The notes beneath the pieces are model-generated. The model was not told the DNA's origin. It saw nothing but the letters and a program-made list of their open reading frames with translations, and did not search any database. A stretch of DNA of 64,000 bases from Nitrosospira sp. NpAV (GTDB lineage Bacteria; Pseudomonadota; Gammaproteobacteria; Burkholderiales; Nitrosomonadaceae), in contig NZ_JXQM01000019.1 of the NCBI RefSeq assembly GCF_000832065.1, positions 186,001-250,000 of the forward strand. The letters are read 5' to 3'. Below, piece by piece: positions 2,820 to 30,125 of the stretch. The position numbers were made by a program, and so were the translations under genes. Every line of letters starts with the position of its first letter. Positions within the stretch are counted from its first letter, which is position 1.

Positions 2820-4784
2820 CTAAAAGAAGTAATTGACTGAAAAAACGCCTTCGTTGTAATGGTCGTAGCGGTTCAATTCCACCCGCACGTCAAGATTCTG
2901 CGAGAGCGCATAACGGGTTAAAAACTGAGAAGTGAAGAAACGCTTGCTGTCGCCCAGCAAAAAAACCTGGTAACTGCCGGCAAGTTTGACCCTCAAATTT
3001 TTAGTGACATCGTAATACGCGCCCACCTCCATATCGCCGCCAACACGGGAATATTCTTTCAGGTGATCCGAAAATTCCGCTTTCAAATCCACAAAGGAAT
3101 ATAACAGCAGGGGCGAGAAAAAATCCGGACGATAAGACATGCCTCTCCCATACGTGACATTGACGGCATTGCAATAATTGCAGTTGCGATCCCTGAGGGT
3201 GTTGAGCCCAACATCCAGGCGCCAGGAGTATTTGGGAAGCAGGGGATCGTAGGGGGTGAGGGAGGTGATGGACAGTATCTTGGCCCGGTCCAGCCTTATC
3301 CGGTCGGAATCCATGTAATATCGAAGCGCGAAATCCAGGAATATGATTTCCGAATTTTTATCGTAGCCGACATCCCTCGCCATTAAATCATGGTAGGCTG
3401 GGCGATAGGCAAATTCCATGAAGGGTTCGTGCGAATTGTGGCCGAAACCCACGCGAAAGCGGTCTGTCCCATGCCCCTGGTCCGGCCGGGTCGAGAAGTG
3501 GGTGATGCCCCCCGCGACATCTTCGGTAGTGGGCAACCGGCTTCTCGCCGACAAAACCGAACGGGGTATTTTTATTTCCTTGTCGCTCTTTTCCTGCATG
3601 CTCTGGTATTGCAGGTAATCCATGTAAGCATTCAGCACGAGCGCTTGCGATTTAGGGGAAAGATTTACAAAAGCGGTGCTTTCCGGCGAAATTTTCCCCT
3701 TGACCAGCTTTTCCAATATCTTTTTTTCGCGCTTGATCATCTTGAGGCGCTTATCGTTCATCTGGCTGAGCACCGCGGGCCGGTATACGATATTTTTTAC
3801 CAGGCCTTCCTGCGCCATCACGAGTTTTACCGTATCGGTGGGGATCACGCTAAAAAAAAACGAATCTTTCAATCGCAGGTCGGGGTTGGCGATCTCCAGC
3901 AGGGCAAGTACATGGTAAGAGCAGTTTTCCTGGAAATAGTAATAATCGAAATAGGTGCCACCCAGCTCCCATAGGTGCAGCAGCATCATCTTCAACTGGT
4001 CTTCGGTAAACTTGAGCTCGTATTCCCAGAGATCCCGGCTTTCCCAGTTGTTGTATTCCTGCACCTTGGTGTAATAGGGGAAAATGGCGAAACGGCCCTC
4101 GAATGCGCCGGTCAAGCCCTTGAGCGCATAAAGGAATGAATTTTCGGTGTCCGTCGCCGCGGCGTAGTTGACGCCGTAGTTCATCAGATTATTGCCGCTG
4201 CCCCTCCTGCGGCTATCGATGCGCATCAGCGTATGACCGAACATGGATGCGGGGTTGTTCAGGAAATAGGAGGCAAAGACCAGTGTGGCCCCGACTGGGT
4301 CAAGGTTTTCCATCCAGCGGTCGAGCCGTTCACATGGCTGTACCTCCAGTCGGTCGAGGTCGAATGACAGTTGCCGATTCAGCCATTTGAACCGGGCGGG
4401 AAAATTGCATTGCGGATGCTCCTTGCCTTCCGCGACATCGGCCAGCGGAACGAAGAAGCTGGCGAGCGTGGCGGCCAGCTCGGCTTCCGGATCGGTTTTC
4501 CCCTGGGGAGAGTTGAAAAATTCCATCCCATCGGCTTCGCTGACCATACCGCCCAGGAGCCGCGTGTCGTACTTCAAAAGCAGATGCCAAACGCGCTCAT
4601 GGGCAAGTTTTTTTTGCTTGGCTTGCTGTTGCAGTTCCGCCAGGTAGTGGGTGGCGTCTTTTTGCTTGGAATGAGCAGAGGCAGGAAAAAAGCAAAACCA
4701 GGAAAGCAGCCCAACGACAATACTAATATGCCGCACAACGGAACCGTAGGAGTAATAATGATAAAAACGGGCATAGGCTTTCAC
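2820..4784 (-). CDS. DUF4105 (Lnb N-terminal-like) envelope protein
   Basis: A 654-aa protein with a signal or anchor segment (ISIVVGLLSWFCFFPASA) and a DUF4105 domain. The domain is marked by FASYFLNNPASMFGHTLMRI near residues 170-190 and by an ENCSYH segment, the Cys/His pattern of this papain-like NlpC/P60-related family. The C-terminal third is rich in alternating aromatic and hydrophobic strands and ends in ...VNYFF, as in outer-membrane beta-barrels. The longest frame starts with GTG at 4784, but that codon sits inside a terminator hairpin. A GTG at 4736 would put the signal peptide right at the N-terminus and looks more natural. It follows a DUF3015 gene, a pairing that suggests a shared envelope role of unknown nature. 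Confidence 0.8.
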   Translation of the reverse strand: MKAYARFYHYYSYGSVVRHISIVVGLLSWFCFFPASAHSKQKDATHYLAELQQQAKQKKLAHERVWHLLLKYDTRLLGGMVSEADGMEFFNSPQGKTDPEAELAATLASFFVPLADVAEGKEHPQCNFPARFKWLNRQLSFDLDRLEVQPCERLDRWMENLDPVGATLVFASYFLNNPASMFGHTLMRIDSRRRGSGNNLMNYGVNYAAATDTENSFLYALKGLTGAFEGRFAIFPYYTKVQEYNNWESRDLWEYELKFTEDQLKMMLLHLWELGGTYFDYYYFQENCSYHVLALLEIANPDLRLKDSFFFSVIPTDTVKLVMAQEGLVKNIVYRPAVLSQMNDKRLKMIKREKKILEKLVKGKISPESTAFVNLSPKSQALVLNAYMDYLQYQSMQEKSDKEIKIPRSVLSARSRLPTTEDVAGGITHFSTRPDQGHGTDRFRVGFGHNSHEPFMEFAYRPAYHDLMARDVGYDKNSEIIFLDFALRYYMDSDRIRLDRAKILSITSLTPYDPLLPKYSWRLDVGLNTLRDRNCNYCNAVNVTYGRGMSYRPDFFSPLLLYSFVDLKAEFSDHLKEYSRVGGDMEVGAYYDVTKNLRVKLAGSYQVFLLGDSKRFFTSQFLTRYALSQNLDVRVELNRYDHYNEGVFSVNYFF

Positions 4785-4808
4785 CTATACCCGTTCGTCG
4801 TTTTTTTT
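4767..4808. terminator. Bidirectional intrinsic terminator between DUF3015 and DUF4105 genes
   Basis: An 11-bp stem (4767-4777 with 4784-4794, one G-T mismatch) encloses a 6-nt loop. It is followed by T8 on the plus strand and by T5 on the minus strand. On the minus strand it lies just after the DUF3015 stop codon, so it should stop or attenuate transcription into the DUF4105 gene. Confidence 0.7.
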
Positions 4809-5322
4809 AATTCAATGCGGCTTGCGTGATATTACAGGAATTTGCCAGAGTGGGATTGCTGGTGATCTGCTTTTCAAGCTGACTCAGCAATTCGGTCGAG
4901 GTGGTCTTATCGCTTGATACCAGCGTATCAAATTTTTCCTGGACCATTGCACCAAATTCCTGGTGCTTCGCTGCGGGGCACTGATACAAGCTGGCCAGGG
5001 TGTATAGATTTTCACCTTTGCCTTGCGCCATTTCCTTAACCAGGCTGGTGTAATTCTCCTGCGCAAATACCTCCCGTTCTTTGCTCAGCTTTACTAATCC
5101 ATGGTCGCCGCAATTCGAGGTTCCAAATGTAATCCCGAAAGTTTGGGACCCGAAGGTTCCATTGGTTGTTGCGGCAAAAATCTGCTCAACGCCTTTCTTC
5201 TGTGCGTTCTGAAAGACCATTGAACCCAGCCCACAACCTGCTGCACCATATCCAGCTGCAAAAACAGAAACAGGAAGTAAAAACAGGGAAGCTGCTGCTG
5301 CAATCAGACTATATCGTCTCAT
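4807..5322 (-). CDS. DUF3015 family secreted protein
   Basis: A 171-aa protein with a clear signal peptide (MRRYSLIAAAASLFLLPVSVFA). A mature domain of the DUF3015 type follows: AAGCGLGSMVF near the N-terminus, an FGTSNCGDHG segment, then a helical region ending in paired cysteines. Four cysteines (one after GYGAAG, one in SNCGD, one in YQCPA, one in NSCN) could form two disulfides in the periplasm. It is the upstream member of a pair with the DUF4105 gene, separated by an intrinsic terminator, so it is probably expressed at a higher level. The family's function is unknown. Confidence 0.85.
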   Translation of the reverse strand: MRRYSLIAAAASLFLLPVSVFAAGYGAAGCGLGSMVFQNAQKKGVEQIFAATTNGTFGSQTFGITFGTSNCGDHGLVKLSKEREVFAQENYTSLVKEMAQGKGENLYTLASLYQCPAAKHQEFGAMVQEKFDTLVSSDKTTSTELLSQLEKQITSNPTLANSCNITQAALN

Positions 5323-5648
5323 AATTCTCTCTCCAATAAAGAGGTTGCTGTCACGTCAATTTAGATTAACTACCCAATAGCTTCAAAGTACCCAGTTTCA
5401 AAACTCATAAAATGATCCAGGAAAAATAACGGCCTCTCCCTGAACCCAAATTGAATTTACTGAACGTCTCCCGGATTGTCAAATTTATATTGAGTTTTAG
5501 GAAGTTAAAGCGTTCAGCTTTAATAATTTAGGGTTGCAAGGTAGAGGGTGAACTCGCCATCCTCAAGAATGCGATTGAGCAATGGACAAATAAGCTGAAT
5601 TTTCTCGATACATTTCAGCCATCGCTTCGTCATGAGTCCTATCCGGGA
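5323..5648. other. Intergenic region, no gene seen
   Basis: These 326 nt lie between the start of the DUF3015 gene and the 3' end of the giant operon. They are AT-richer than the flanking operon and must hold the promoter of the DUF3015 gene. I see no convincing hairpin with a U-tract for the giant operon and no small open frame with a ribosome site. Confidence 0.5.
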
Positions 5649-7583
5649 TCACGTCTTTCCCCTCGAAACCACATCGAACTTCAACCCGCTGCTGCCTTCA
5701 CCGCGGCCGGTGACCTTGCTGCGGCCAATCCACAGCAATCCACGCCCCTGGGCATCACGGGCATAGTTGAAGCTGCGTTTGAGCTCGATGCCGTCACGCG
5801 GCACTTCCTCTTCTTCAACGCGCAGATAGTCGTTGGCGACAGCGGCGCCTGGATCGAGGCGGAGCAAACTGCCGCGCGGGTGGAACATGAAACCTTGCAG
5901 CTGATTGTCCGCTGCCCCCTGAACCGGCGTGGTCTCGACGAAGCTGTTATTGCGAAGCCGGGCGATGAATTCGCTGTAACTTGCATTGTGCGGATCGCCC
6001 AAACGGCTTTCGGTCACCTGGTAGTAGTGCGTCACGACTGCGCGCTGCAATTGGATAGCCCAATTGGCGGGGGTTGCACCCGCCTTGCGCACCGGGAGGA
6101 ACGGCACCCAGTTGGCCGCCACCGGCGTCTGCAACCGGTACTGCAACAGCGCGCCACTCGCCACCGGGCTCATATCGGGCGGCGGGCGCAGGGTCTGGGT
6201 GGTGGAGAGCCGGGTACTTTCGAACTTGCGGTCGATGGGCTCCCCCGAAGTGCCTTGTACCCGCTTCTCGATGCCCCACACCAGGTTGGCCATCTCATCG
6301 CGCATCATCAGCACGTGCTCGAGGGGCGGGCCTTCGAGTGTGTCCAGTTTCGGGCAGAGATACAAGGTGTTGCTGAGCCGGTCCACCGGTGCGCCCGCGG
6401 CGAGGCTCATCTCGTACATATTCCACTCGGCGGGCGGAATCGCCAGTTCGATGCCGAAATTGTCGAGCACGGTGAAGGTGGTCGTGCGATATAACGCGTT
6501 GGCCGGCAAGGTGAGCGGCAATACGAACCAATCGTTGCCGAAAACCAGCGCGTACTCGAGCACCGCCAGGCGCGCAAGATCGCTCTTGGCGGCTCCAAGC
6601 ATGCCGAAGTTGACGCGCCCGTCTTCGAACTCCCAATAACGGTCGGCAGGCATGCCGGGGTAGTGAGCGGCGGCAGGCATGGGCGCGCGCGCCGGAATCA
6701 CGCTGAAGGCATCCGAAGGGCCGGTTGGCGCCCCTGCTGCAGCCCCAAGCGTGTAGGTATGCCAATCCAGCCGTCCATCCGTATATTCATCGGCCAGCAG
6801 GCGCACCGCTGCGCCCTCGCCTTGCGCGCCAAGTGAAAAACTGTACTCGAGACGCTGCGGCTCCCAATAGGCACTGGCCCCCGGCATGGTGCCGTCGAGC
6901 GCCAATTCTTCGAGCCACAGCGCCCAGCGCTCCATCAGGTCACAGTAAGCTTTTATCTGCCCTACCGAAACGCCCCTGTCGCTGGCAAATGCTTCGAGCG
7001 CAGGTCTGCTGCCGGCAAGATCCTTCAGGTCACGTGAAAGTGCGAGCGCATCGATGGCACGCTGGTTGAGCAATGCATTCCATACAAAACCCGCCGTGTC
7101 GGCTACAGGATCATCCGGTGCGGCGAGCGACGCGGGATATTTGTCCAGCAGGGCCTGCACGGTCGTGCCCAGGCTGGCGGCGCGCAACATGCGCATGAGC
7201 TGTTGCCCGGCTTGTGCGTTCAGCTTGGGGTGTACCGGCAGCACCTGCTCATGCTCGACATGCGCCTCCACCGGCGCAGCCCCGGGTGGGAGCGGCAATG
7301 CAGCAACCGCCCCGGTATTATGCTCGAGCGTGGTAACGGGCAATCCGGCCATCTCCAGCACCGCGCTGATGGGACTGCCCGCATCCTCGCCCTGGAATTC
7401 ATTGAATTGCCACTGCCGCGCCAGCATCCAGAGGGGATCGGCCACGCGGGCCTGCAGACTCTCGGCAACGTCATCGCTGGTGGGGAGGGGCTCGAGCCGC
7501 GACCAGGTGGTATGCGACGGGTCGGGTCTCGCGACGAGCGGCGTCCTGGCGGTGATTTTAGCGGCGGATGCAGAGATCTTCAT
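5649..7583 (-). CDS. Giant-operon protein D, 644 aa, unknown function
   Basis: This is the last gene of a four-gene leftward operon, 22 nt after the 1639-aa gene, with its own GAGGA ribosome site 8 nt before ATG. There is no signal peptide and no membrane segment. The N-terminal part has ADPLWMLARQWQFNEFQGED (about residues 48-67), an aromatic-rich motif that reads like a conserved family signature. The middle contains YWEPQRLEYSF and a tryptophan-rich sandwich-like region. The C-terminus is RGLLWIGRSKVTGRGEG. I do not recognise an enzymatic motif. The lack of a leader and the co-transcription with three larger partners suggest a cytoplasmic assembly or a particle component. That is inference. 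Confidence 0.8.
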   Translation of the reverse strand: MKISASAAKITARTPLVARPDPSHTTWSRLEPLPTSDDVAESLQARVADPLWMLARQWQFNEFQGEDAGSPISAVLEMAGLPVTTLEHNTGAVAALPLPPGAAPVEAHVEHEQVLPVHPKLNAQAGQQLMRMLRAASLGTTVQALLDKYPASLAAPDDPVADTAGFVWNALLNQRAIDALALSRDLKDLAGSRPALEAFASDRGVSVGQIKAYCDLMERWALWLEELALDGTMPGASAYWEPQRLEYSFSLGAQGEGAAVRLLADEYTDGRLDWHTYTLGAAAGAPTGPSDAFSVIPARAPMPAAAHYPGMPADRYWEFEDGRVNFGMLGAAKSDLARLAVLEYALVFGNDWFVLPLTLPANALYRTTTFTVLDNFGIELAIPPAEWNMYEMSLAAGAPVDRLSNTLYLCPKLDTLEGPPLEHVLMMRDEMANLVWGIEKRVQGTSGEPIDRKFESTRLSTTQTLRPPPDMSPVASGALLQYRLQTPVAANWVPFLPVRKAGATPANWAIQLQRAVVTHYYQVTESRLGDPHNASYSEFIARLRNNSFVETTPVQGAADNQLQGFMFHPRGSLLRLDPGAAVANDYLRVEEEEVPRDGIELKRSFNYARDAQGRGLLWIGRSKVTGRGEGSSGLKFDVVSRGKT

Positions 7584-7605
7584 TGCGCGGTCCTCATGGT
7601 GTACA

Positions 7606-10600
7606 TCATTCGCTTCCGGTCATCAGTGTCTTACCCGCCGCCATCGTGACGGCGCCGCTGCCCAGGCTCGTGGCCGCACGCAGCAGATCGAGATTCTTTG
7701 CCAGCATCGCGCCGAAATTAACCGACGGCACATCCTGCTTGAAATTGTTGGACAGGAAGATGCCGGGCAGTATCAGCCCCAATCCCTGCAAATCCTGGGG
7801 GCGTACCGCACGCAGGCGTGCCAGCGCCAGCGCCTCGTTCACCACCCCGAGCAGCTCGTCCAGCGTCCAGTTCTCCGCCGCCGGATCGGCGGGCACCGCC
7901 ATGAGAATGCTTTGGGGAGGGCGCGCGCCGGGCGCGTCAAAATGAAAACCAAGACCCGTGGTTTCCTTATCGGACGGGATCGATTCCATCCACTCATCGA
8001 CGAAGAGTCCTGCCATTGCCCCATCGGCGTCCAGCGTGGCCAGCGCGCCGGGAGCATGGGCCGCCACGGCTACCACTCCGCGCAAATCCTGGCCGGTGGC
8101 CGGTGGCAATGCGGCCCAGCGCGCCGCGGCATCGCGTGGAAATTGCAACAGCTTGAAATCCAGCGCATCGCTCTCATAGCCCGTGGCGGCGCCCAGCGCT
8201 TCCGCAGCCGTGAGCGCATCGGATAGCATGCCGGTGGCTTCGCGCACACACGCCAGCTTCGGCAACCAACCCGCGATCACGGCATCATCGTTCCCGAGAT
8301 CCGCCTTGGCCAGCAGCGCATCGCGATCGCCAAGCGTTGCCTGGGCCTCGACCGCAAAGGCGCCCAGCTTAAACATCGGCAGCACCGGAAAAGCCTTGCC
8401 CATGATGGAATGAATACGATCCAGCGCCGCCTGCACCTGTCCGCCAAAGCCCTCGGAAACCGCGGCTTCCTGCGCCGTTTTGATGCGCGCGCCCATCTCG
8501 TCGCGCAAGGCGCGGACTCGCGCCACCGCGCGGGCCGCCGTATCGCCGGGCGCCACCTGTTCGCCTTGCACCTCGGCCGTGGGCGAAGCCGGAACCGCGT
8601 TGCTTGCCAGGGCGCTCCGCCAACCCAGCACATAGGCTTTCGCGAGAGCTGCCTGTGCAGCGGCGAATAACGCCTGCGTGCCGGGCGCAACAGGATCGAG
8701 CGTCGATAGATCCTCGGGGGCAAGATCGCTGGCCGCATCGAGTGCCGCCAATGCGTCGGCTGCCTGGGCATCGGCGATGGCAAGCCGCCCTTGTAGTTCC
8801 GGCAAATCCACCCCCGCGAATTCGCCGTCGTCCTGCGTCGCATCAGCCTCGACTCCGTCGCGAGCCTGAACCATATCCATTCGGCGCAGCGGCCTGGATT
8901 TATCCACCAGCCGCCGCAATACCCACGCAAATGATTCGAATGCGACCAGGCCGATATGATCCGCCTGCGTCGCATCGGCCTGCAGTACAACCGCCATCCG
9001 GTCGGCATCGCCCCCCACCTCCGCGCGCAGCTTGGCACCCAGGAGCGTGCCTAGGCGCTCCTGCACACCGCTGTGTCCACCGCCCTGCTGCGCTTCGCTT
9101 TGCAGCACGAGCGCCAGCGGCGAGAGTCCCAGCTCGGCGATACCGGCGCTCAGCGTTTTGCCGGTATCCGTCCACGGATCGGCGGGACCGGCGGGCGGGG
9201 CAAATACCTTGGCGACAAACTCGTAGCGCGCCGGATCACCCAGCAGGCGGGCAAGCCAGGCATTCAGACGCGGCTCCATGCGGGCGGAAATTTCGTCATC
9301 CGCCACGCCGGCCCAATCGCCAAGCGCTGTGGATTGCAACGCCACCACCACACGCTGCGTGTAGCCCCGCGTCGAATGCGGCGTCTCCACCACGCGCGTT
9401 TCAGGGGGCCGCGTCTGTTTATCCAGCGTCATCATCGCCGCACCCGCGCCTTCCATATTACCGCCCACCATCTGGTATACGCTCTCGGAAATCAGCAAGT
9501 CCGACACCGAATCCATCTGATCCAGCAGATCGTCGATGATATCGGCAATGGCCCCGCCTTGATGCGTCAGCGCGGCCGGCACGCCGGCCACCGCAAACGC
9601 AGCCTTATTGCTGCGGTAGGCGTCCATCATGCGCACGCCATCGACCACATCGCGCGCAGCGATTTCTTCTTTCGCCTCGTCCCCGCTGTTGCTGCCTGCG
9701 GGCCGCAGTGGGAATACGCGGCGGAATTCGAGAATATGCTGCGGCAAATCCTTGTCGCGCAATCCCCGCTCGAAGCGATAACCCAATAGCGCAGCCATCG
9801 ACTGCCCGTTCGCCAGACCTTCGAGCAACCGTTTCGCCCGTTTGACACGATGCGAGCGCAGATCGATGTCGAAGGCGCTGCCGGCCGCCTGGCGGTTGGC
9901 CAGAAAACCACTGCGCAGAATGGCTACCGCGGCGGCTTGCTGCAGCGAGGGCGCGTGCACATAGCCCAGGCTGTCGAGCGACTGGCTCGGACGTTGAGAT
10001 GAGTCGGGCAGCAGGTCCTCCACGATGCCGAACGCGCCGATGTGAATGCCTTCGGGTTTCGACTCGCGCATGGCGTCGAGCCGGCGGGTGGCATGCGAAG
10101 TGATCCATGCGTCGAGGCGGTGAGCGAACAGGTCGAGCGTGGTGCGGAACGCTTGCTGCAGCTCGCCCGCGGTACGGTCTTTGAGAAAAGCCAGGCTATC
10201 GTTGAAACTGGCGATGTTGCGCATGTGCTCGGGCCATAGCTGCGCCGCCATGCCGAGCTTGGAACCCATAAACTCTTCCACCGACAATTGGCCGGTAGTG
10301 CCGGTGAGTTTGAGGCCCAGCACCGCCCGCGCATTGTTGATGTCAATCTGGTCGCCCACCAGCGTACTGCTGTCCACACCGATGTACTCGGCGGTGCGAA
10401 AGCGTTTTGCCTGATTTTTCAGTTCCACGCTCAAGGTGCCGATGGTTTGCAGGTGCCCGTAAAACAAATCGTGGCCGGACTGCAACACCTCTTCGTCGGC
10501 CGCGAAGCCCAGCATCGCCTCGAGCAGCGATTCGCCGTTCTGCATCGCCGCGAGCGGCGAGCGGATATTGCTGGTGGCTTGTGTCAGCAACTGCAACAAC

Positions 10601-12525
10601 GTTGCGATGTAGTTACGCTTGAGCATGACGGCGCCATCGAGTTCGCGTTGCGGCTGATCAGGGTCGCGCTGCACCCAGGGCACGGCATCCATGGCGTGCG
10701 GTTTCGGGCGCACCGCGCAAAGAGAAAGGAACGGAATCTTGGTTTCAAATAACTGCTGGTCGAGCAAGTCGGCAATCAATCCACGCAGCATCAGGCCCTG
10801 AAACTGGGCAAAAGGCGCAATGTCGGGATAATTGGCAATCGTCGCCGGGCCGGCCACCTCCCAGTAGCGTTTTGCCGTTGCCCAAGGTTGCATCGCCAGC
10901 ACCTGATGCAGATTTTCGGCGTTCGGGTCACGCAAGGTGGGGACGCGTGGAATCGCGCTGTCCCAGAAATTGCGGAACCATTGTTCGGCCTGCGCCAGCT
11001 CACGCTCCAGCGGAGAATTGGCGGGCGGCACATAGTTGCGCGAGGTGACCGGCAAGATGCCATAGGGCTGCTTGCCCACGCGTAGCGCCGACAACGGGCC
11101 GCCCGCACGCAGGTAGCGCACCGCCCAGGCGCGCAGCTGTTCGTTTGCCGCGTCGTCAATCAAACTGTTGGCGCTGGATAACGGGTTCCAGAAATAACGT
11201 AAGGTATAACCCAGCGTGGCGTTCCATAGCGCATTGAGCATGTGGCCCGCAGTGGCGCCCTCGGCCAGATCGGCGCCCGGAATGATGCCGGCGTCGAACA
11301 CTTCGGCAGGCAAGCCCAGCAGGCGCTGCAGACGCGCACCGGCACTCGCGAGCTCGACCGCCGCGGCAGCGGCTCGTGCGTCCGCATTTTCCGGATGCAG
11401 CTCAGCTGCGGCATCGGCGCCGTTGGCCGCGAAGCCGGCGCGCGTACTTGCGGTATTGTTGGTCGGCGTACCCTGGGCCACGAACTTCAGACCGCCGCTG
11501 TGCTGATGGTTATCCAGCAACGTGGCGATAAGGGCGGCCGCCGACTCGGGCGTCTGTGTCCAGTCGACACCCAGCACGATCAGGCGATCGATGCGGTCAC
11601 GCATTTTCGCGCCGGCCTTCAAATCCGCTTGCGTAATATTGATGGCCATGCCGGCATCGAGCGCGGCCGGGTAATTGACCATCCACGCACGATCGCCGCC
11701 AAAGGGATGGTGCTGCTCCGGATCATCGACGAGTAACGGATCAAATGCCGGTGACATCGGCAGCAGATCGGCCACCGGCCGGCCCCACTTGCGAAATACC
11801 TCGCGGCCTCCCGCCTGGCCGATGACGACGAAGCGATCCGGCAGGGCGGTGGCGTAAACCGTCGCCGTATCGGTGTTCGCAAGGGGAATCGACCCATCGT
11901 CGAACGCTGGCGCCACTCGCTCGCCATTCGGTGCCTGGCCGATCTGCGCGATGTTGCCGGGCGTCGTGCTGCGCACGATCCACGCGGCGCGCGCGGGCGG
12001 GTAGATACGCACAATCTGTTTCCAGGGCGACTCCGCATCCTGCGGCTCGGCGAAACGCTGCATCCAGTAACGCTTGCCTTCGCTTACCTCGGCAGGCGTC
12101 AGGCCCGGCTCGTGACCAAAGGCGTGAATGACATCCGGGTAAACGCGCACCATCAGCAACGAAGCGTCATCGGTGTAGCGCGTCTGAACCGCCACCGGCA
12201 GCAGCATCACCGGATGCGCCGATGACAAGGCTTGCACCAGCACCGCCGGGTCGCGCTGCGCCAGCAACTGCTCCGACAGCTCCTTGAGCCCGGCCAGGCG
12301 CTTGGCAGTACCGGCCATTGCGTCGCGCGCGCCTCCCTGCAAGGTTTGCACGCTGCGTTGCTGGCGCCTTACCAGCGCTTCGGCCGCACCGCTGCGCAGC
12401 AAGTCGTCAAGGCTGGCTTGCGCCTGCTTGAGCTTCACGCCCGCATCACGCTGCGTGTCGCGTTGCTGAGCCAGTTCGCCGCGGGCACGCTGGATGGCAT
12501 CGAGGTTCAGATTCAATAACGGCAT
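7606..12525 (-). CDS. Giant-operon protein C, 1639 aa, unknown function
   Basis: The largest protein in the window. Residues 10-90 are a heptad-like, Gln/Arg/Ala-rich coiled coil. After that come VYPDVIHAFGHEPGLTPAEV, an Arg/Trp-rich central region, and a stretch with GYVHAPSLQQAAAVAILRSG and LLGYRFERGLRDKDLP. The C-terminal section has TGLGFHFDAPGARPPQSILM. From memory these phrases resemble very long hypothetical proteins in actinobacteria and myxobacteria, but I cannot confirm this. There is no signal peptide, transmembrane segment or catalytic motif. A strong GAGGAGAT ribosome site precedes the ATG. The gene starts 9 nt after the 1201-aa gene, so translation is tightly coupled. The frame is intact across 4.9 kb with high-GC codon use, so the gene is under selection. 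Confidence 0.85.
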   Translation of the reverse strand: MPLLNLNLDAIQRARGELAQQRDTQRDAGVKLKQAQASLDDLLRSGAAEALVRRQQRSVQTLQGGARDAMAGTAKRLAGLKELSEQLLAQRDPAVLVQALSSAHPVMLLPVAVQTRYTDDASLLMVRVYPDVIHAFGHEPGLTPAEVSEGKRYWMQRFAEPQDAESPWKQIVRIYPPARAAWIVRSTTPGNIAQIGQAPNGERVAPAFDDGSIPLANTDTATVYATALPDRFVVIGQAGGREVFRKWGRPVADLLPMSPAFDPLLVDDPEQHHPFGGDRAWMVNYPAALDAGMAINITQADLKAGAKMRDRIDRLIVLGVDWTQTPESAAALIATLLDNHQHSGGLKFVAQGTPTNNTASTRAGFAANGADAAAELHPENADARAAAAAVELASAGARLQRLLGLPAEVFDAGIIPGADLAEGATAGHMLNALWNATLGYTLRYFWNPLSSANSLIDDAANEQLRAWAVRYLRAGGPLSALRVGKQPYGILPVTSRNYVPPANSPLERELAQAEQWFRNFWDSAIPRVPTLRDPNAENLHQVLAMQPWATAKRYWEVAGPATIANYPDIAPFAQFQGLMLRGLIADLLDQQLFETKIPFLSLCAVRPKPHAMDAVPWVQRDPDQPQRELDGAVMLKRNYIATLLQLLTQATSNIRSPLAAMQNGESLLEAMLGFAADEEVLQSGHDLFYGHLQTIGTLSVELKNQAKRFRTAEYIGVDSSTLVGDQIDINNARAVLGLKLTGTTGQLSVEEFMGSKLGMAAQLWPEHMRNIASFNDSLAFLKDRTAGELQQAFRTTLDLFAHRLDAWITSHATRRLDAMRESKPEGIHIGAFGIVEDLLPDSSQRPSQSLDSLGYVHAPSLQQAAAVAILRSGFLANRQAAGSAFDIDLRSHRVKRAKRLLEGLANGQSMAALLGYRFERGLRDKDLPQHILEFRRVFPLRPAGSNSGDEAKEEIAARDVVDGVRMMDAYRSNKAAFAVAGVPAALTHQGGAIADIIDDLLDQMDSVSDLLISESVYQMVGGNMEGAGAAMMTLDKQTRPPETRVVETPHSTRGYTQRVVVALQSTALGDWAGVADDEISARMEPRLNAWLARLLGDPARYEFVAKVFAPPAGPADPWTDTGKTLSAGIAELGLSPLALVLQSEAQQGGGHSGVQERLGTLLGAKLRAEVGGDADRMAVVLQADATQADHIGLVAFESFAWVLRRLVDKSRPLRRMDMVQARDGVEADATQDDGEFAGVDLPELQGRLAIADAQAADALAALDAASDLAPEDLSTLDPVAPGTQALFAAAQAALAKAYVLGWRSALASNAVPASPTAEVQGEQVAPGDTAARAVARVRALRDEMGARIKTAQEAAVSEGFGGQVQAALDRIHSIMGKAFPVLPMFKLGAFAVEAQATLGDRDALLAKADLGNDDAVIAGWLPKLACVREATGMLSDALTAAEALGAATGYESDALDFKLLQFPRDAAARWAALPPATGQDLRGVVAVAAHAPGALATLDADGAMAGLFVDEWMESIPSDKETTGLGFHFDAPGARPPQSILMAVPADPAAENWTLDELLGVVNEALALARLRAVRPQDLQGLGLILPGIFLSNNFKQDVPSVNFGAMLAKNLDLLRAATSLGSGAVTMAAGKTLMTGSE

Positions 12526-12534
12526 GAGATCTCC

Positions 12535-15500
12535 TCAGGTCTTCAGGTCGGATCCGATGAAATACGCGCGAAACGGCTCTTGCAGCAACGCCTTCGCGAC
12601 TTCGGCGGCCGTGGGTGTAGTGGTCAGCGTCGGGAACGAGGCAAACGGCTTGTTCGGTACCTGCACCAGGTTCGCCACACTGGCGAAAGCGCCCGGCTGC
12701 ACATCCACATTTGTCCACGACAAGGCCTTGTAAGGGTTATAGTTCTTGTAGAGCGGTGCGGCGACGTTGGCTTCCAGCTTCACCAACGTGTCGAGCAGCA
12801 CCGGACGCCGCTTGCGCCCCGGCTGGCCGGCGACGGGATCCGCGACGTCAAACCCGAAGCGCGGCTCGGTCATCTGCTCTTCGAGCACGAAGCACCATTT
12901 CTCTATCTGGTCGTGGTCGATGTCAAAGCCAAAGAAAGTAATGTCTTCACCAATCACACCGGAGAATACCGGCAATTCGACCGCGCCGTCGGGCCGCTGG
13001 CCTTCCGCGTCTTTCAGCAGCGTGTTGGCGTTGCTGGTTTTCTTCCATGCGTAGACCGATGTATTCGGGTAGCGCCGCAACAACTGACCACGCACCAGCA
13101 GCGCCACCCGGTCGGGATCGCCGGCGATCGGGTCGGCACGGTTGCCCAGCGGTTGCGCTCCCCATAAATGCATCGGCTGCATATCATCGAGGGGGATCAA
13201 TGGATAAGCCGGTGCCGGACCCAGTTGCTGACGTCCCCAGAAGCGCTGGAACGGCGTGCCGCGCAAATCGGTCGGGAAGCCGCGCCACAGCAATTCGCGG
13301 TTCATCTCGAAATTGGCGCCGGCCATGAAGCTGTCGATGAAATGCTGATTCACTCGAACCAACATCACCAGGTCTTGCGGAATATCATCCACGCCGGGCA
13401 TGAAGGCATTCTTGTCGTACTTCGCGAGGCGTTCATATAAAGGTTCCGGAAGCTTGGGCCAGGCCATCACGCGGTCGAACAGCACGGGGATCATGAAGCG
13501 CTGGCGGGCCAGCGCATCGGTCAGCGACAGGTGCGCCGCAACAAATTCGTTGGCGGCGTTTGCCGCCAGGTTGGATACTGAAACCATGGAGGCAAGCCGC
13601 GCCGAGAGTGTCGCTTCGGGTTGCGTGCGCAAGCGGATGATCGCCGCCGCCCCGGCCATGCCGAAATCCACCGGCTTCACCACCACGCGGCTCACCACAT
13701 ACGCATCCCGCCAGGCGTTTTGCGTGCCGCCTGTGGCCACCGCATAGCGCTGCAGGATATCGCGGTCGCGCAATACAGGTGGCATGGTCAGCGACACCGT
13801 TGGCGACACCCGCCCCGCGGCTGGCCTGCCGGTAAATTCGAAATTCTCGTTGAGCGCAAAATTGACCGGCGCGGCACCGGGGGTGGATGCCAATGCATTC
13901 ACCGGCAAGGCTGCGAACACCCCTGCGGTGTCGAACCTCCGGATGTCGGCTATCCGCAGGTTGCCGAGCTTGATGCCAGCCAATGGCAATTCCGCATCCC
14001 GGGCCGTGATTTCGCGGCGCAAGCGGTCGAATGCGCGCATAACCGGCTTGTCCAGCCGTACCCCGCCGCTGCGCGCATCCAGGCTCACCGTGCCGAACTG
14101 CAGGCGGCCGGACTCGCGATGCGCTTCGATCAAAATACCCTGAACCCCACGCCCGCCCAACGCCTGGATCGAGTTGGACACCACGATCCAATCGGTCGAT
14201 TGCACTGTTGGTGCGGCGGCGGCCAACAGGCCGAAACGCTCGACATGCAGGTCGGTAAAAACACCCTGGCCCCTGCGAATCTTCAGCTCGGGCACCCCGC
14301 CGCGTTTTAGCAAGTCCGTACTCTGCCCCGCGGCGGCATTCATCTGCTTCACCTGGCCCACCGTAAACCGGCGGCCCAGGCCGGATGCGCTGAGATCGAG
14401 CGTTCTCCCCGGTGCGCCGCCCAGGTCGACGGTAGCGAATGCCTTGGTGCTAAGGATACCGTCGGGCAAGAATGCGTTGACGCTGAAAGCAGCCGGCTTG
14501 CCGCTTGCACGGGCCATGACATCCACGTAGCGTGCGGTCTGCGCAGGCAGTGTTTCAAGGGTGCGGGTCAAGCGCGACGCCATGCGTAGCGAACGGCGCG
14601 CCGGGCTGATGGCCCGGCGAAGCGCGGTGTCTACCATGGCGGCAGGCAGGCTGGAACGGTCGATCTGGCCACCGAGCGAACCGATCTGCCCGGCGATATT
14701 GAACCGGGTGCCATCGCCCGCCAGCGCCTCGATGCGCGGCAGCGCCGGCCCCATCACCTGCAACAACCGCTCGGGCGCCAGCACATCGAAATGCTTGGCC
14801 TTGAGCGCCCGCTGCGCCTCAATTGCCAAGCGCGTCAAATTAAAACGCATCTCGGCATCAAGGATGGTGCCGATCTGGTCCCAGGCCGCGTCGACAAACG
14901 ACTCCTGGTTTTGCCGCACCACTTCCGCTCCGTAGCCAGCCGCGCCGCGATAGCGTGGGTTGAGGTTCAGATCGGCCACCCAATGCTTGCCAAATTCCGT
15001 CTTGGCCGCCTGATGCTTCCTGGCATGCCACGCGCCGATCATCGGCGGCTTGACTTCGAGGCGGCGTCCCGCCGCGTTGGTGCTGCCGTTACCGACCGGG
15101 TTGACGACATTTTCCTGGGGCGTGTTGACGATGATGGCGAGGCTGTCAGCCTGTGTACCGTTGGGCGGCGCTCCCGGCGTATAGCTCAGCGGCACCAGCG
15201 CGCCTTCCATCGTCGCCTCGAGACCCGGCGTGGAGCCGTTGAGCAGGTCATCGACGCGCATGGGCGCGGTACCCACCTGGGCAAGCGCATCACCGGTCGG
15301 CGTGTTCTTATAGTATTTGGGGGTGCGCAGGCGTCGCGCCAGCGACTCGAAATCGCCGGCGGGGCCGGTGGAAAATTCCCAGTGGAAATACACTGGCAGC
15401 AGCACGTCGGCGGCGATGTTTGTATCCCATGCGGGACCCAGTGTCGCCATGCCTGCCGGATTGGCATCCGCCAGACCGAGGCCGCGCAGCCGCCCCGGCT

Positions 15501-16140
15501 CGAACGCCGGGACCACGCAGGCAACGTAATCCTTGTTGGGTTCCAATCGGCGTGGGCAAACCAGGCGCGACACATTACTCGCCGGATCATGCTGCAGGTC
15601 CGACTGAATGCCGATGTTGTCGGCCGCTTTGCTGACAACTTGCGCATGCGACCACGACCACGATTCCCCGAGCCCCGGCAACTCGCTCTTCACATCCGCA
15701 CCAGAAACGCGTATGGTCGGCAATGGCCCGTTTGACGGCATTTTCGGTACGCCTGTCCGGGCACGGTCAAGAACCACCAGCACCAGCCAGGGACGCAGCC
15801 GGTCGTCCGCATTGGCCTGTGCGGGGGTAAGCATCCAGGGGAAATCGGGCGGGTCGAAATCGATGATGGCGAGGTAGTTCGGCTCGAAGTTGCACGCTTG
15901 CGGCTTGGGATCGGTGCGCAGCACCAGCCGTGTGTCGATGCCGGTTACATCGCCCGGCCCATGCAGGGCCATCTGCAGCGGATTGATCAGCGTCCCGGCA
16001 TTGGGGCCGGCCAGCGTTACCCCTACGGGCGCGCTGGCGCGGGCGGGCAGCAACGGCTGGACGCCGAGGTTGTCGGGATTGGCCAGTGCAACGGTAAGGC
16101 CGCGCCGCACCCACGGCAGGAACTGGTAGGAAACCGCCAT
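12535..16140 (-). CDS. Giant-operon protein B, 1201 aa, unknown function
   Basis: Second gene of the operon, 44 nt after the DUF6603-like gene, with an AGGAGA ribosome site 8 nt before ATG. Landmark segments are IDFDPPDFPWMLTPAQAN (about residues 92-109), WLVLVVLDRART, a tryptophan pair in ESWSWSHAQV, and SRLVCPRRLEPNKDYVACVV. Near the C-terminus are LIPLDDMQPMHLWGAQPLG and GEDITFFGFDID. The pattern is one of an all-beta, proline- and tryptophan-rich structural protein. No signal peptide, membrane helix or nucleotide-binding site is seen. The tight operon and similar scale point to a stoichiometric partner of its neighbours. Function not recognised. Confidence 0.85.
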   Translation of the reverse strand: MAVSYQFLPWVRRGLTVALANPDNLGVQPLLPARASAPVGVTLAGPNAGTLINPLQMALHGPGDVTGIDTRLVLRTDPKPQACNFEPNYLAIIDFDPPDFPWMLTPAQANADDRLRPWLVLVVLDRARTGVPKMPSNGPLPTIRVSGADVKSELPGLGESWSWSHAQVVSKAADNIGIQSDLQHDPASNVSRLVCPRRLEPNKDYVACVVPAFEPGRLRGLGLADANPAGMATLGPAWDTNIAADVLLPVYFHWEFSTGPAGDFESLARRLRTPKYYKNTPTGDALAQVGTAPMRVDDLLNGSTPGLEATMEGALVPLSYTPGAPPNGTQADSLAIIVNTPQENVVNPVGNGSTNAAGRRLEVKPPMIGAWHARKHQAAKTEFGKHWVADLNLNPRYRGAAGYGAEVVRQNQESFVDAAWDQIGTILDAEMRFNLTRLAIEAQRALKAKHFDVLAPERLLQVMGPALPRIEALAGDGTRFNIAGQIGSLGGQIDRSSLPAAMVDTALRRAISPARRSLRMASRLTRTLETLPAQTARYVDVMARASGKPAAFSVNAFLPDGILSTKAFATVDLGGAPGRTLDLSASGLGRRFTVGQVKQMNAAAGQSTDLLKRGGVPELKIRRGQGVFTDLHVERFGLLAAAAPTVQSTDWIVVSNSIQALGGRGVQGILIEAHRESGRLQFGTVSLDARSGGVRLDKPVMRAFDRLRREITARDAELPLAGIKLGNLRIADIRRFDTAGVFAALPVNALASTPGAAPVNFALNENFEFTGRPAAGRVSPTVSLTMPPVLRDRDILQRYAVATGGTQNAWRDAYVVSRVVVKPVDFGMAGAAAIIRLRTQPEATLSARLASMVSVSNLAANAANEFVAAHLSLTDALARQRFMIPVLFDRVMAWPKLPEPLYERLAKYDKNAFMPGVDDIPQDLVMLVRVNQHFIDSFMAGANFEMNRELLWRGFPTDLRGTPFQRFWGRQQLGPAPAYPLIPLDDMQPMHLWGAQPLGNRADPIAGDPDRVALLVRGQLLRRYPNTSVYAWKKTSNANTLLKDAEGQRPDGAVELPVFSGVIGEDITFFGFDIDHDQIEKWCFVLEEQMTEPRFGFDVADPVAGQPGRKRRPVLLDTLVKLEANVAAPLYKNYNPYKALSWTNVDVQPGAFASVANLVQVPNKPFASFPTLTTTPTAAEVAKALLQEPFRAYFIGSDLKT

Positions 16141-16184
16141 ATGATGTTCTCCTGTTCTTCTTCAGCGTTCTTCGGTGCGTCGGC

Positions 16185-19100
16185 TCAAAATGTCTGCACG
16201 GTCTCGAATGCTTCAACCACTTGGAGGCCTGCGCCGCCGCCCCGAGCATAATCTTCCGCATGCCAATACGAATGCGTGGCCGCGCCGGTGAGTGCCGCGC
16301 CCTTCATCGTACCCGCCGCCAGATCTATTGTTTGGAGGGGCGGCGGGTTGACGTTGATCTTTACCTCTACCGCAGGCTTGAGCTTGGCCGCGCGCCGCAG
16401 CTCGGAGCGGTTCGCCGCGCCGAGCGACTTTGCCCAGGTCATGTGTCCGGTCTCGGTGAGCGCCGCATAGGACAATAGCGATCCCATCGGGGTGGAGAGA
16501 TTCACTTCTTCGTAGTCGAATACGTCGGCTACCGGAACGCCGAACAGGTAGTCGCGCTGGCCTACTTCAAAGCCGGCTTCGAAACGATCGAACGAGGGCT
16601 TGGCAAAAGTTTCGTCTTCAGTCAGCTCGAGAAATTGCGCGGCTGAAAAATTGTCGTCCAGCTTGCGATCGGCTACCTTGGTAATGGCGCCAAACACAAT
16701 CTGGTCAATGGCGATTTTCGTTTCGCCATCGATGCCGTCGGTGCCCAGTTTCGCCAGCTTCTTATCCAGCGGCATGCGCTTCTGCACGAACTGGAGCACC
16801 GCATTCGGATGCGCTAGAATTCCGATGTCATCGGATAGCTTCGCGAAGGTGGCAAACGCATCCCCCGCCTGGGGGAGTTGCGCGGACCAATTACCCGTTT
16901 TCTCCAATTCGATCTTGAGTTCCGCCGCCAGCGACAAGCGGCGCACCGTGGTAGCGCGGTCTTCACCCCAGCTCTCATCGACGTGAAAACTGAAGTCGGG
17001 CAGCGGCCACGGCGTATGGATTTCGGCACGGCCGACAATATGCCAGCGGCCTGGTCCGGCGAACAGGCCGTAGATATCCACGCTCGCGAAATCGATGCCG
17101 AACACCTCGACACCGGCCCAGACATGCAGATCGACCTCGAAGCGGAACTTCGGAACGATGTAGATGATGGCGTCGAATTCGAAGCCGCCCTCGAAAGCCG
17201 CAATACCGACGTCGCCCCAGACGCGCATCGATGAGCCGCCTTGCACGGTGGCCGAGGTGACGGCAAAGTAGCCGCGAAATTGCATGCCGACGATGCCGAT
17301 GGACAGATCCGCGCCAATGCGCTGGAATGGCGAGGGCAAGCCAGGCGGCAGATCGGTGAAGCGGGGGTGGAAGCCCCCGGCGCTGATGAGGAAGCTGGGC
17401 TTGTCGCCAAAGATGGCACGAAAGGCGAACTGGCCGGTGAGCGAGATGAACACCACGCGCGAGTCGCGCAGCATGCCATCGAACCAGATCTTGAGGGGAT
17501 CGAACACGATGCCGCCGGCAAAATCGACCTGGAGCCGCAGGATGGCGAGCGACTTCTCCACCAGCGGCGGCAACTGCACGATCACTTGGCCGACAAATAC
17601 GATCTGGCTGGCTTCAATCAGCACGCCCACACGCGCCGTCACCAGGCTTGGCGTGCCCCAGCCCAGCTCGAGCATCGGTCCGATGACAAAACCCCCTGCC
17701 TTGAACGGAAAAATAGTCCGCAGTTGATTGATGATCTGCGGCGCATTGGCGATAGGGTTTTGCGGAAACAGGAAACTGTCGAGCGACCCGCTGGCGAGTC
17801 CCTGCGACAGCGTATCGACGCTTACGGTGTGCTGCACGCCCAGCAGTCCGCCGATACCGGTGAGCGTAAAGCCGAAGCCAAGCTGAATCGGCGGAAGCTG
17901 CGCCGTGATGATGAGCAGCAGCGACCATCCACCCGGATTTTTGGTGGACAGAAGCCCGATGGCCTTGACCCCGATGGCGGCGATACGGATGTCGAGAATA
18001 CCGCCATACTCGCCGTGTTCCGGGTCGAACAGGAGGAAGCCGCCGCCCTTGACAATGCCGGCATCGATGCCGAGCCCTACGCCCGAAGGTGGCTTGAGGT
18101 CATATTTTGGCGCCACGCCGCCGGCGAGCAGGTCATCCAGCCGGAGCACCGTGCCGAGCCGGTCGATGGAACCGGAGAACGGGCCGATCAGCACCTGGAA
18201 CGACCCGGACAGCTCGATGTCGATCTTGTTCAAGTCGCCCGCCTTCGTCATTTCGAAAGTCAGGAACGGGATCTGTACCGGGCTGTTCGGAATTTTCTCC
18301 AGCGGGATCGTGGCCTTGAGGCCGGTACCGTCCTTCAGTCTCAACCCGCCCCCCGCATCGGCGATCAGGCCGAAAGTCAGCGCTACTTCGATGGCATCGC
18401 CAAGCACTGCGCCGAGGAACGGATCGTCGCCGATCTTGAGCACCAGCTTGCCATCCTTCAGATCGAACTCAACCTTGGGATCCAGCTGCTTTAACGTGAA
18501 GCCGCCGGACAGCTCCCCTATGGAGAAGTGGGTACTGTCCTTATTGCCCAGGATCAACGGCTCAACACTGCTTGCACGCTTGAATAAAATACCGATCTCC
18601 GAAGTACCGGTCAGCCTGGGCGGAGGGATACTCGCCGGCAACGGCAGCAGAGCGGGCAGATCGAATTGAACCTGCATGCCGCCATCGGCTTTGAACTCGA
18701 TCTGGAATGTGGTGTCGGCGCCACCTCCGGCCTTGACTTTCGTCAACAGCGCGGCGTACAGCGTCTGGGGGCCTTCGAAACCCAGCGTTGCCTCAAGCTG
18801 TCCCGGAATCAGCCGGTAGGTCTTTGTCGCGAGCGCAGGCACGGGAATCGCCGCGCCGGGAACTACCCAGCCCTTTGAATCCGACAGATTGGGCGCACTG
18901 AAAGAACGGTCAAGGATGGTACCCACCGCCATGATCACAAGGCCGAGAATCATCTGCGGCTCAGCCACCTGCGCGTCCGACAGGGCATTGCCCGCGGGAT
19001 CTTGCCCCTTGATCAGATACACCAGGCGGCGCGCCGGCGGCCTGGCATCGGGCTCATCGGCGTCACCGCTCAGGATCAGCAACAGTTTCCCGATGGAATA

Positions 19101-19484
19101 GGCGCTCGGCGGCTTGCCGGGGTCGGCCGAAACAATGCGATTGATCTGCCGGATGACCTTCGACAGATCGTCGAGCCCCACGTTGCCGCCGCCGATACCG
19201 GACAGTAACTCGCCGACCGTTTTCAACGCCGCCAGCGTTTCACCGGTGACCAGTGCCGCAATGGCGAGCGATTCCGCCTCCGCCCGCGTCGCGGCAAATG
19301 CCTCCGGATCGATCGTAGCCGAGGTTTTATCCAGCTCGAGGCCCAGCCGGGTACGCAAGGCGTCGGCCAGGGGCGCCGCGAGCGAAGCCGGGCCTGTCGC
19401 CGGAATATCAGCTTCCAGCGCCGCCACCGTGGCTTGGAACCACTTGAATACCCGCAGAAATACCTTGTCGGAAGTGCCAGCCAT
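16185..19484 (-). CDS. Giant-operon protein A, 1099 aa, DUF6603-like
   Basis: First gene of the operon; an AAGGGAG site precedes the ATG. After an alpha-helical start (VFKWFQATVAALEADIP) come many repeated amphipathic strands in which glycine and hydrophobic residues alternate. Examples are IVKGGGFLLFDPEHGEYGGI and PPIQLGFGFTLTGIGGLLGV (centre), and FEFDAIIYIVPKFRFEVDLH (about residues 770-790). I recall this architecture as the DUF6603 family, of unknown function. The long glycine-rich strand repeats look like an elongated beta-solenoid or hydrophobic groove. There is no signal peptide, so a soluble or self-assembling role is more likely than a porin. The family assignment is from memory and is the strongest handle on the operon. 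Confidence 0.75.
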   Translation of the reverse strand: MAGTSDKVFLRVFKWFQATVAALEADIPATGPASLAAPLADALRTRLGLELDKTSATIDPEAFAATRAEAESLAIAALVTGETLAALKTVGELLSGIGGGNVGLDDLSKVIRQINRIVSADPGKPPSAYSIGKLLLILSGDADEPDARPPARRLVYLIKGQDPAGNALSDAQVAEPQMILGLVIMAVGTILDRSFSAPNLSDSKGWVVPGAAIPVPALATKTYRLIPGQLEATLGFEGPQTLYAALLTKVKAGGGADTTFQIEFKADGGMQVQFDLPALLPLPASIPPPRLTGTSEIGILFKRASSVEPLILGNKDSTHFSIGELSGGFTLKQLDPKVEFDLKDGKLVLKIGDDPFLGAVLGDAIEVALTFGLIADAGGGLRLKDGTGLKATIPLEKIPNSPVQIPFLTFEMTKAGDLNKIDIELSGSFQVLIGPFSGSIDRLGTVLRLDDLLAGGVAPKYDLKPPSGVGLGIDAGIVKGGGFLLFDPEHGEYGGILDIRIAAIGVKAIGLLSTKNPGGWSLLLIITAQLPPIQLGFGFTLTGIGGLLGVQHTVSVDTLSQGLASGSLDSFLFPQNPIANAPQIINQLRTIFPFKAGGFVIGPMLELGWGTPSLVTARVGVLIEASQIVFVGQVIVQLPPLVEKSLAILRLQVDFAGGIVFDPLKIWFDGMLRDSRVVFISLTGQFAFRAIFGDKPSFLISAGGFHPRFTDLPPGLPSPFQRIGADLSIGIVGMQFRGYFAVTSATVQGGSSMRVWGDVGIAAFEGGFEFDAIIYIVPKFRFEVDLHVWAGVEVFGIDFASVDIYGLFAGPGRWHIVGRAEIHTPWPLPDFSFHVDESWGEDRATTVRRLSLAAELKIELEKTGNWSAQLPQAGDAFATFAKLSDDIGILAHPNAVLQFVQKRMPLDKKLAKLGTDGIDGETKIAIDQIVFGAITKVADRKLDDNFSAAQFLELTEDETFAKPSFDRFEAGFEVGQRDYLFGVPVADVFDYEEVNLSTPMGSLLSYAALTETGHMTWAKSLGAANRSELRRAAKLKPAVEVKINVNPPPLQTIDLAAGTMKGAALTGAATHSYWHAEDYARGGGAGLQVVEAFETVQTF

Positions 19485-20073
19485 GTAGGCTCCCTTTTTT
19501 TGATTATTATGCGGCTACTGCCCGAAATCTATGCAATTGCCTGCATCACTTGCCGGGCCTTGCCTCTGCCTGACCAGAAAACGCCAGCGCCTTGGCTAAG
19601 CGCTCCTATCTCGCAATCCAGCTTTTTTCTTTTTAGCAGAAAAAAACAGAAAATCCAGTATATGCATGAGTTATTTCTGGAATATGTATTGATCTTGGTC
19701 ACTATGTCGCTTTTTAGGTATCGGGACCTTGCCAACCGACCTCGCGGAACCCCCCAATATTTGAAGCATCTCCCCCTCCCGAAGGAAATTCTGCAAGATC
19801 CCTGGCTCAACACCCTCCTTTCGCCGCTTGCGTTGTTAAAAACCCTTCAGAGATTGGCGTTTTTTTTTTTGTAATGCTCGTGCATGATTCGTCCATGCAA
19901 TTCTCAAACCCAACCCGTACGAATAGCCAAAACCTAATCGCGATCCACTGGAACAAGCGCCAACTTCGTGAGGTGTACAACATTTGTTCAGACAAATTGC
20001 ACGTCTGACTTAAATAACGGAGATCCCTTAATTTGAGTTTCTTATATGTCGTATTCCTGTTCTTAAAAGAAAG
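19485..20073. other. Intergenic region with divergent promoters expected
   Basis: These 589 nt are AT-rich compared with the operon to the left. They must hold the start of the giant operon (leftward) and of the porin gene (rightward). A T-rich run lies at 19860-19872. A small inverted repeat, TCAGAC at 19988-19993 with GTCTGA at 20003-20008, lies about 70 nt before the porin gene and could be an operator. No credible small gene is seen. Confidence 0.45.
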
Positions 20074-28536: not shown

Positions 28537-28550
28537 GTCAGTGGAGTTTT

Positions 28551-30107: not shown

Positions 30108-30125
30108 GGGTGCAGGGACGCAACC

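Follow-up and report, generated by a model that had tools for sequence, protein, structure and literature searches.

What might four adjoining genes for giant proteins do together, when only the first of them matches a protein family and that family has no listed function? The question is raised by a 64,000-nt stretch of DNA from Nitrosospira sp. NpAV (contig NZ_JXQM01000019.1, positions 186,001 to 250,000), which in its whole length is called the window here. The four genes are designated a, b, c and d; loci carry L-numbers and genomes G-numbers, the strain's own genome being G000. A preliminary description of the window had reported an intact operon of four giant proteins without assigned function. 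The layout it gave was confirmed: open reading frames, lengths, gaps, ribosome sites and unbroken frames. The operon lies on the minus strand and is read from 19484 to 5649 in the order a-b-c-d. The genes are separated by 44 nt (a/b), 9 nt (b/c) and 22 nt (c/d), and a purine-rich ribosome site precedes every ATG (GGGAG, AGGAG, GAGGAG and GAGGA). The genes recur side by side and in one order in distantly related bacteria and in haloarchaea, which makes it likely that they encode components of a single protein machine not described before.

Conservation of the four-gene unit

Proteins a-d were compared by tblastn with 72,556 plasmid records. Matches to a, b and c were found in 13 records each and matches to d in 14; the identical 13 records hold all four. 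These plasmids belong to 11 species: five are from Streptomyces (three of them S. longwoodensis), four from haloarchaea, and one each from Nocardia, Gemmatirosa, Rhizobium and Paraburkholderia. In the 14th record, from S. anthocyanicus, d stands without the other three, within a few kb of two IS5 transposases, and looks like a remnant. Co-occurrence of the families had been proposed as a check, and loci lacking the other members as a refutation; this lone d is the one exception encountered. The order a-b-c-d is the same in all 11 plasmid records fetched, which include one of the three from S. longwoodensis; one of the two Halobellus copies is cut by the end of the record before d. Chromosomal and unnamed loci agree with this order as far as their contigs reach. 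Some copies are interrupted: Rhizobium has b and c each annotated as two consecutive genes, and b of G169 contains an in-frame TAG. The plasmid of Halobellus sp. DFY28 carries two nearly identical copies of the module (L021 and L032), both fragmented, each in a different way.

The proteins have also diverged in step. Over 10 loci, protein distances are correlated for all six pairs of a-d (r 0.82-0.95), and none of 2000 permutations gave values as high. The conserved unit suggested earlier is thus borne out by shared plasmids, fixed order and correlated distances; a-d is one genetic unit, a cassette kept and moved whole.

The distribution of the module is patchy. Among 300 genomes of the order the b profile matched 4, one of them weakly, and among 23 of the window's genus it matched 3; the d profile matched a single genome of 398 from the phylum, that of the strain itself. 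The closest relatives of the window module are in Rhizobacter and in a metagenome-assembled genome (MAG) of Rhodoferax. Resemblance to giant actinobacterial proteins, which the preliminary description had mentioned, is real: relatives of the a-d type occur in Streptomyces and Nocardia, and of a second type (see below) in Embleya. The joint tree conflicts with species relations. Paraburkholderia groups with Nocardia (support 1.0), apart from the other Burkholderiales, which points to transfer or to old duplicate lineages. A split with support 1.0 places Streptomyces and the haloarchaea together; the tree is midpoint-rooted, so this is no proof of transfer between domains.

Genes a-d are under purifying selection. 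Ratios of nonsynonymous to synonymous substitution rates (dN/dS) were obtained by Nei-Gojobori counting, with synonymous sites partly saturated. In comparison with the Rhodoferax MAG the ratio is 0.12-0.13 for c and d; with Rhizobacter it is 0.25-0.39 for a-d, and a compared with G169 gives 0.21. Two other members of the genus carry the module. G1023 has a divergent a-b-c-d module, and G1030 has a block that starts at the stop codon of d, extends some 200 bp upstream of a and is 91.2% identical to the window over 14,051 bp. Chromosomal genes of G1030 also match the window at 22.2-25.5 kb (88-90% identical); the porin region between (window 19.7-21.8 kb) is unmatched, and downstream only 92 bp match within the 4.3 kb fetched. 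The operon has a guanine plus cytosine (GC) content of 63.2% versus 53.8% for the remainder of the window, and third-position GC of a-d is 0.75-0.77 versus 0.48-0.68 in six other window genes measured. Despite this composition, the block and the matching chromosomal genes indicate that the module occupies one locus in both strains and is not a very recent arrival. Nearly 14 kb held under purifying selection and inherited as a block implies a strong benefit.

Families and sequence features of the proteins

The first protein had been taken for a DUF6603 member, and it is a clear one. It matches PF20248 with 373.5 bits (gathering cut-off 27; E 2.1e-111) over model positions 6-501 of 502. Pfam lists the family as of unknown function, and has no model for the partners b-d. 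Nothing significant was found for b, c or d in Pfam, NCBIfam or PHROGs at E up to 1, and a-d match no PADLOC family at E 0.01. Profile searches of PDB gave no creditable relative (d, best E 0.079; b, none; a, E 0.0031 to coiled coils), and a as a single sequence had no match there. The four proteins are mutually unrelated by hhalign profile comparison.

Recognisable domains are rare among the homologues. At most 2 of 13 c proteins have a Pfam match (one decapeptide repeat, one weak DUF7409), and 1 of 12 b proteins has an FG-GAP domain; b of S. longwoodensis is annotated VCBS, and haloarchaeal d carries a lamin-tail label. These domains, like the PG-binding and F5/8C domains met beside some modules, are usual outside cells. 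In a, hydrophobic periodicity is helix-like over residues 1-200 and mostly beta-like from about 200 to 900, except 500-600. Invariant residues of the four families are mainly Gly, Pro, Trp, Leu, Phe, Arg and acidic; there is no invariant Cys or Lys, the one invariant His is in b, and several invariant Asp/Glu occur in b, c and d.

Export was assessed with a simple hydropathy heuristic: 8-residue means near the N-terminus for signal peptides and 19-residue means for membrane segments. By this measure no signal peptide is present in any of the 20 core proteins scored, which come from five loci; the highest N-terminal means of the window's a-d are 0.90-1.50, versus 2.52-2.97 in three exported neighbours. 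Of the two absences claimed at first, that of signal peptides agrees with this heuristic and that of membrane helices is in doubt. The highest 19-residue means are 1.83 in a (from residue 173), 1.43 in b, 1.68 in c (from residue 95) and 1.37 in d. The usual level for a membrane segment is about 1.6; a and c exceed it, so that a buried helix and a membrane stretch are both possible.

A second type of DUF6603 module

PF20248 was found in 6 of 300 genomes of the order and 6 of 369 of the class, the strain's own genome being in both samples; this gives 11 distinct genomes. Ten of them carry one of two module types. Type I, a-b-c-d, is present in five (G000, G286, G169, G921 and G852; contig ends truncate it in G169 and G852) and type II in five others (G219, G264, G741, G677 and G329). 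In type II, a DUF6603 giant (a', open frames of 2624-3518 aa) is followed by b', e' and c'. G166 was considered as a further module and not counted: its DUF6603 match of 19.4 bits is below the cut-off, and its large neighbours have no family matches.

The two types are related through b. Its N-terminal half aligns with b' (hhalign probability 96.7%, E 3.5e-10), and its C-terminal part aligns weakly with e' (probability 44%, E 2.3e-4), in the same order as b'-e'. A single gene replaces b' and e' in five records (two Paenibacillus, S. clavuligerus and two Embleya), which supports the equation of b with b' plus e'; the a profile matched at four of these five loci. From these alignments b appears to be a two-part protein, with a strong match for the N-terminal half and a weak but probable one for the C-terminal part. 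No relation of c' to c or d was detectable by hhalign. By sequence comparison, DUF6603 and a b-type protein are the core common to both types, and the other members differ by type. The Paenibacillus polymyxa module has VgrG-like, DUF4280 and nuclease genes about 9 kb upstream, which were treated as coincidence; the gene table of the first 24 kb, which is incomplete, lists neither a sheath nor a tube.

Enzyme genes beside the modules

Flanks were viewed on one or both sides at 16 type I loci: the window, L002, L003, L009, L010, L012, L014, L018, L019, L020, L021, L022, L023, L024, L031 and L060. Loci that are cut or not annotated (L011, L016, L041, L042), a remnant (L030), the second copy on the L021 plasmid (L032) and L058, whose flanks lay outside the scan, were excluded. 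At eight of the 16, a hydrolase-like gene adjoins the module or lies in the adjacent same-strand run, and its kind varies. L010 has a PhoD-like neighbour (E 2e-10), and L020 a relative of it (33% over 651 aa) with a PG-binding domain. L023 has a trypsin-like protein (E 1e-6), of which L018 has homologues whose own Pfam match (E 0.03) is below the cut-off. An S8 subtilase is found at L024 (E 3e-11), a caspase (E 6e-29) with a C70 papain-like protein (E 8e-9) at L014, and an LCAT-like protein at L022 (E 7e-4, below the Pfam cut-off). At L060, in G1023, a putative subtilase recognised from D/H/S motifs only (4473-6425) ends just before the frame of the divergent a-b-c-d module; no signal peptide is obvious in it by eye.

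Type II flanks were scanned at L038, L039, L040, L043 and L048, with L044-L047 and L049 outside the scan. A class 3 lipase lies further down the same run at L038, and an astacin-like gene is present at L040. The large neighbours at L039 and L043 have no family; that at L048 is an F5/8C-type protein, and an F5/8C domain also lies beside c' in Embleya.

Some neighbours share further regions. The trypsin-like proteins encoded upstream of the module at L018:3894-7185 and L023:1761-5805 have in common a C-terminal region of about 130 aa around a WHRxxGPA-type motif, perhaps a docking domain. The Streptomyces protein at L009:1-972, annotated phospholipase-D-like, and the L024 subtilase of Nocardia have in common a domain of about 100 aa (59% identity) that looks PG-binding-like by eye. 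In haloarchaeal L021 and L022 the gene directly before a encodes a protein (412 and 915 aa) that has no Pfam family and one strongly hydrophobic stretch (19-residue mean 2.55 and 2.77); both proteins are possibly membrane-active.

Proposed function and alternatives

Proteins a-d probably assemble physically. Three features suggest this: the genes are retained as a complete set, split versions of them are tolerated, and the conserved residues look structural; as subunits of a complex, b and c might well be split, as in Rhizobium, and b' and e' be encoded by one gene or two. Different hydrolases stand beside the chassis in half of the relatives examined, and a carrier or docking particle for enzymes is therefore put forward, tentatively, as the likeliest use of this undescribed multi-protein machine. 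The operon would encode the chassis. Its proteins would be made without visible export signals and then come together, a (with its helix-like N-terminus and beta-rich DUF6603 body) and b forming the core of both types, and c and d completing type I. The hydrolases encoded alongside would serve as exchangeable cargo, with the window copy lacking an adjoining cargo gene. The particle could then be released by lysis or another route, working like toxin complexes or extracellular injection particles and unrelated to them. That the machine carries enzymes at all is likewise a tentative proposal; release and action on other cells is doubtful.

Several observations weigh against a carrier of enzymes. 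No hydrolase-like gene was found beside the window, L002, L003, L009, L012, L019, L021 or L031 (the last by record annotation). Of the eight loci that have one, two rest on weak profile matches (L022 LCAT, L018 trypsin) and one on motifs (L060), and at L022, L023 and L018 the matching gene is not the one directly adjoining the module. The count of eight in 16 has no background comparison and the neighbours scanned were hand-picked, so it is a pattern and not a statistic. Some accessory enzymes may carry export signals, since they score near the exported controls by hydropathy (L010 PhoD 2.40, L038 lipase 2.52, L022 LCAT 2.92) in a scoring that covered proteins other than the trypsin-like, caspase, C70 and L060 ones. 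P. sonchi has b'e' and c' and no DUF6603 gene detectable by the a profile. Pfam, NCBIfam and PHROGs hold no model of a phage, tail, injection or toxin protein that matches a-d, and IMG/VR yielded no confirmed relative for any of the four alignments; among 50,697 phage records searched with a, b and c, one unverified faecal scaffold matched b and c, and none matched a. Several of the 20 core proteins, including a and c of the window, hold borderline 19-residue hydrophobic stretches. Structure predictions were uninformative both for d alone (predicted local distance difference test score, pLDDT, 34) and for a 610-residue DUF6603 region with a two-row alignment (pLDDT 27).

The main rival, which is unlikely, is an intracellular conflict or defence platform, on which the giants would scaffold peptidase effectors (caspase, trypsin) acting inside the producer. 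Peptidase-centred conflict systems of multicellular prokaryotes (VMAP, EACC1, NucA-trypsin) are described in PMC7159879, and trypsin- or caspase-type neighbours at some module loci are reminiscent of them. Caspase and papain-like genes adjoin the module in G286, where a PADLOC caspase model matches one accessory gene (E 3e-20); the trypsin-like genes of L018 and L023 have their common C-terminal domain; L009 has a WD40 neighbour, and around L031 there are a pentapeptide neighbour, integrases and a CHAT gene. However, PADLOC has no model for a-d, and no NTPase or EACC1 partner like those of the described systems was noticed beside the module. Nor was any recurrent NTPase, nuclease or second-messenger gene noticed at the loci examined, and the lipase, PhoD-like and lectin-like neighbours better fit a target outside the cell.

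It is distinctly unlikely that a-d instead coat the cell or sit at its membrane as a scaffold displaying enzymes. Lamin-tail, FG-GAP, F5/8C and PG-binding domains within or beside the module would suit such a scaffold, as would the borderline hydrophobic stretches of a and c, but the lack of signal peptides, by hydropathy, in the 20 core proteins scored does not, and the hosts (Gram-negative, Gram-positive and archaeal) have very different envelopes. An enzyme compartment or megacomplex inside the cell, used in the manner of an encapsulin, is improbable. In its favour, a-d have no visible export signals, and a gene ahead of the module in G286 is weakly DyP-like (DyP_N 24.5 bits, cut-off 27.5). 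Against it, a DyP-like gene was seen at this locus only, a-d match no shell protein in Pfam, NCBIfam or PHROGs, and most of the enzymes encoded nearby are degradative. A large multi-enzyme pathway of unspecified chemistry can be given equally little credence, for although large proteins of unassigned fold with several invariant Asp/Glu could be enzymes, they have a single invariant His, no invariant Cys or Lys, and no match to a catalytic family in the same three libraries.

Comparison with known systems

Extracellular injection particles are built of structural proteins without signal peptides and carry exchangeable cargo. Proteins a-d would resemble PVC/Afp-type injection systems and R-type tails in this working principle only; they differ in having no match to a sheath, tube, baseplate or tail protein in Pfam, NCBIfam or PHROGs. 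Tc toxin complexes are likewise made of a few very large proteins, and one b homologue has FG-GAP repeats, but sequence profiles detect no Tc, SpvB, RHS or known toxin model in a-d. Five adjoining giant-protein genes of Apilactobacillus kunkeei, without assigned function and with extracellular products, are described in PMC10496945. In that account the proteins have 3,000-9,000 aa, three have transmembrane domains, and they are listed in a core extracellular set characterised by type-I signal peptides.

A dependence of the module on a contractile system of the host was considered and rejected, as six of the 10 module genomes have no sheath gene. The other four (G000, G219, G329 and G741) have one. 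This share, 4 of 10, is higher than in the class sample, where 13 of 94 genomes have a sheath gene, or 10 of 90 once the four module genomes in it are set aside; the counts are small and separate prophage from injection-system sheaths for G000 only. The strain's own cluster (L053, contig C45:20001-40000, about 9094-19798) has two tandem sheath genes (PF04984) and, by eye, DUF4255-like, tube-like and baseplate-like genes; it is probably an extracellular contractile injection system.

Coordinates and setting of the operon

Features of the operon are collected in Table 1. Genes for a DUF3015 protein and an Lnb-type protein adjoin the window copy at one end, and a BBP2 porin gene adjoins it at the other. 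The region upstream of the operon showed no sigma-70-like promoter; one terminator-like site lies upstream and one downstream, a number near chance. A second GC-rich patch (about 60%) at window 26599-30947 contains S41-peptidase-like, amidohydrolase and uracil-DNA-glycosylase-like genes on the minus strand.

Table 1. Features of the a-b-c-d operon, in window positions
Feature	Position	Strand	Description
Gene a	16185..19484	-	DUF6603 protein, 1099 aa, first gene of the operon; open reading frame and PF20248 match
DUF6603 domain of a	16614..18284	-	About residues 401-957; PF20248 match
Gene b	12535..16140	-	1201 aa; without Pfam, NCBIfam, PHROGs or PADLOC family
N-terminal half of b	14581..16140	-	Residues 1-520, approximate; homologous to b' of type II (hhalign)
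C-terminal part of b	12541..13479	-	Residues 888-1200, approximate; probable homologue of e' of type II (hhalign)
Gene c	7606..12525	-	1639 aa; periodicity mostly helix-like; no family
Gene d	5649..7583	-	644 aa; no family; conserved region RQWQ..EFQGEDAGSP
Block common to window and G1030 (same genus)	5648..19695	-	91.2% DNA identity; its limits are the stop codon of d and a point some 200 bp upstream of a

Novelty and significance

We rate a-d as new as a genetic system, to which no function has been assigned. No PubMed Central paper naming DUF6603 or PF20248 was found, and no system with these parts is present in the libraries searched (Pfam, NCBIfam, PHROGs, PADLOC). Three families, b, c and d (about 3,480 residues per copy), have no model, yet occur together from Burkholderiales to haloarchaea. 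It is quite doubtful that the modules represent a previously undescribed kind of enzyme-delivery particle with no kinship to contractile injection systems, Tc toxins or encapsulins. In such a particle, a four-protein chassis shared by bacteria and archaea would be built on a DUF6603-b core of at least two architectures, and each lineage would set its own protease, lipase, phosphatase or lectin gene beside the cassette. If the carrier reading is true, it would be a new microbial way of deploying enzymes outside the cell, and possibly a chassis for protein delivery. Even otherwise, DUF6603 gains a context of near-constant partners, two module types and candidate cargo genes, and with this context its function becomes testable.

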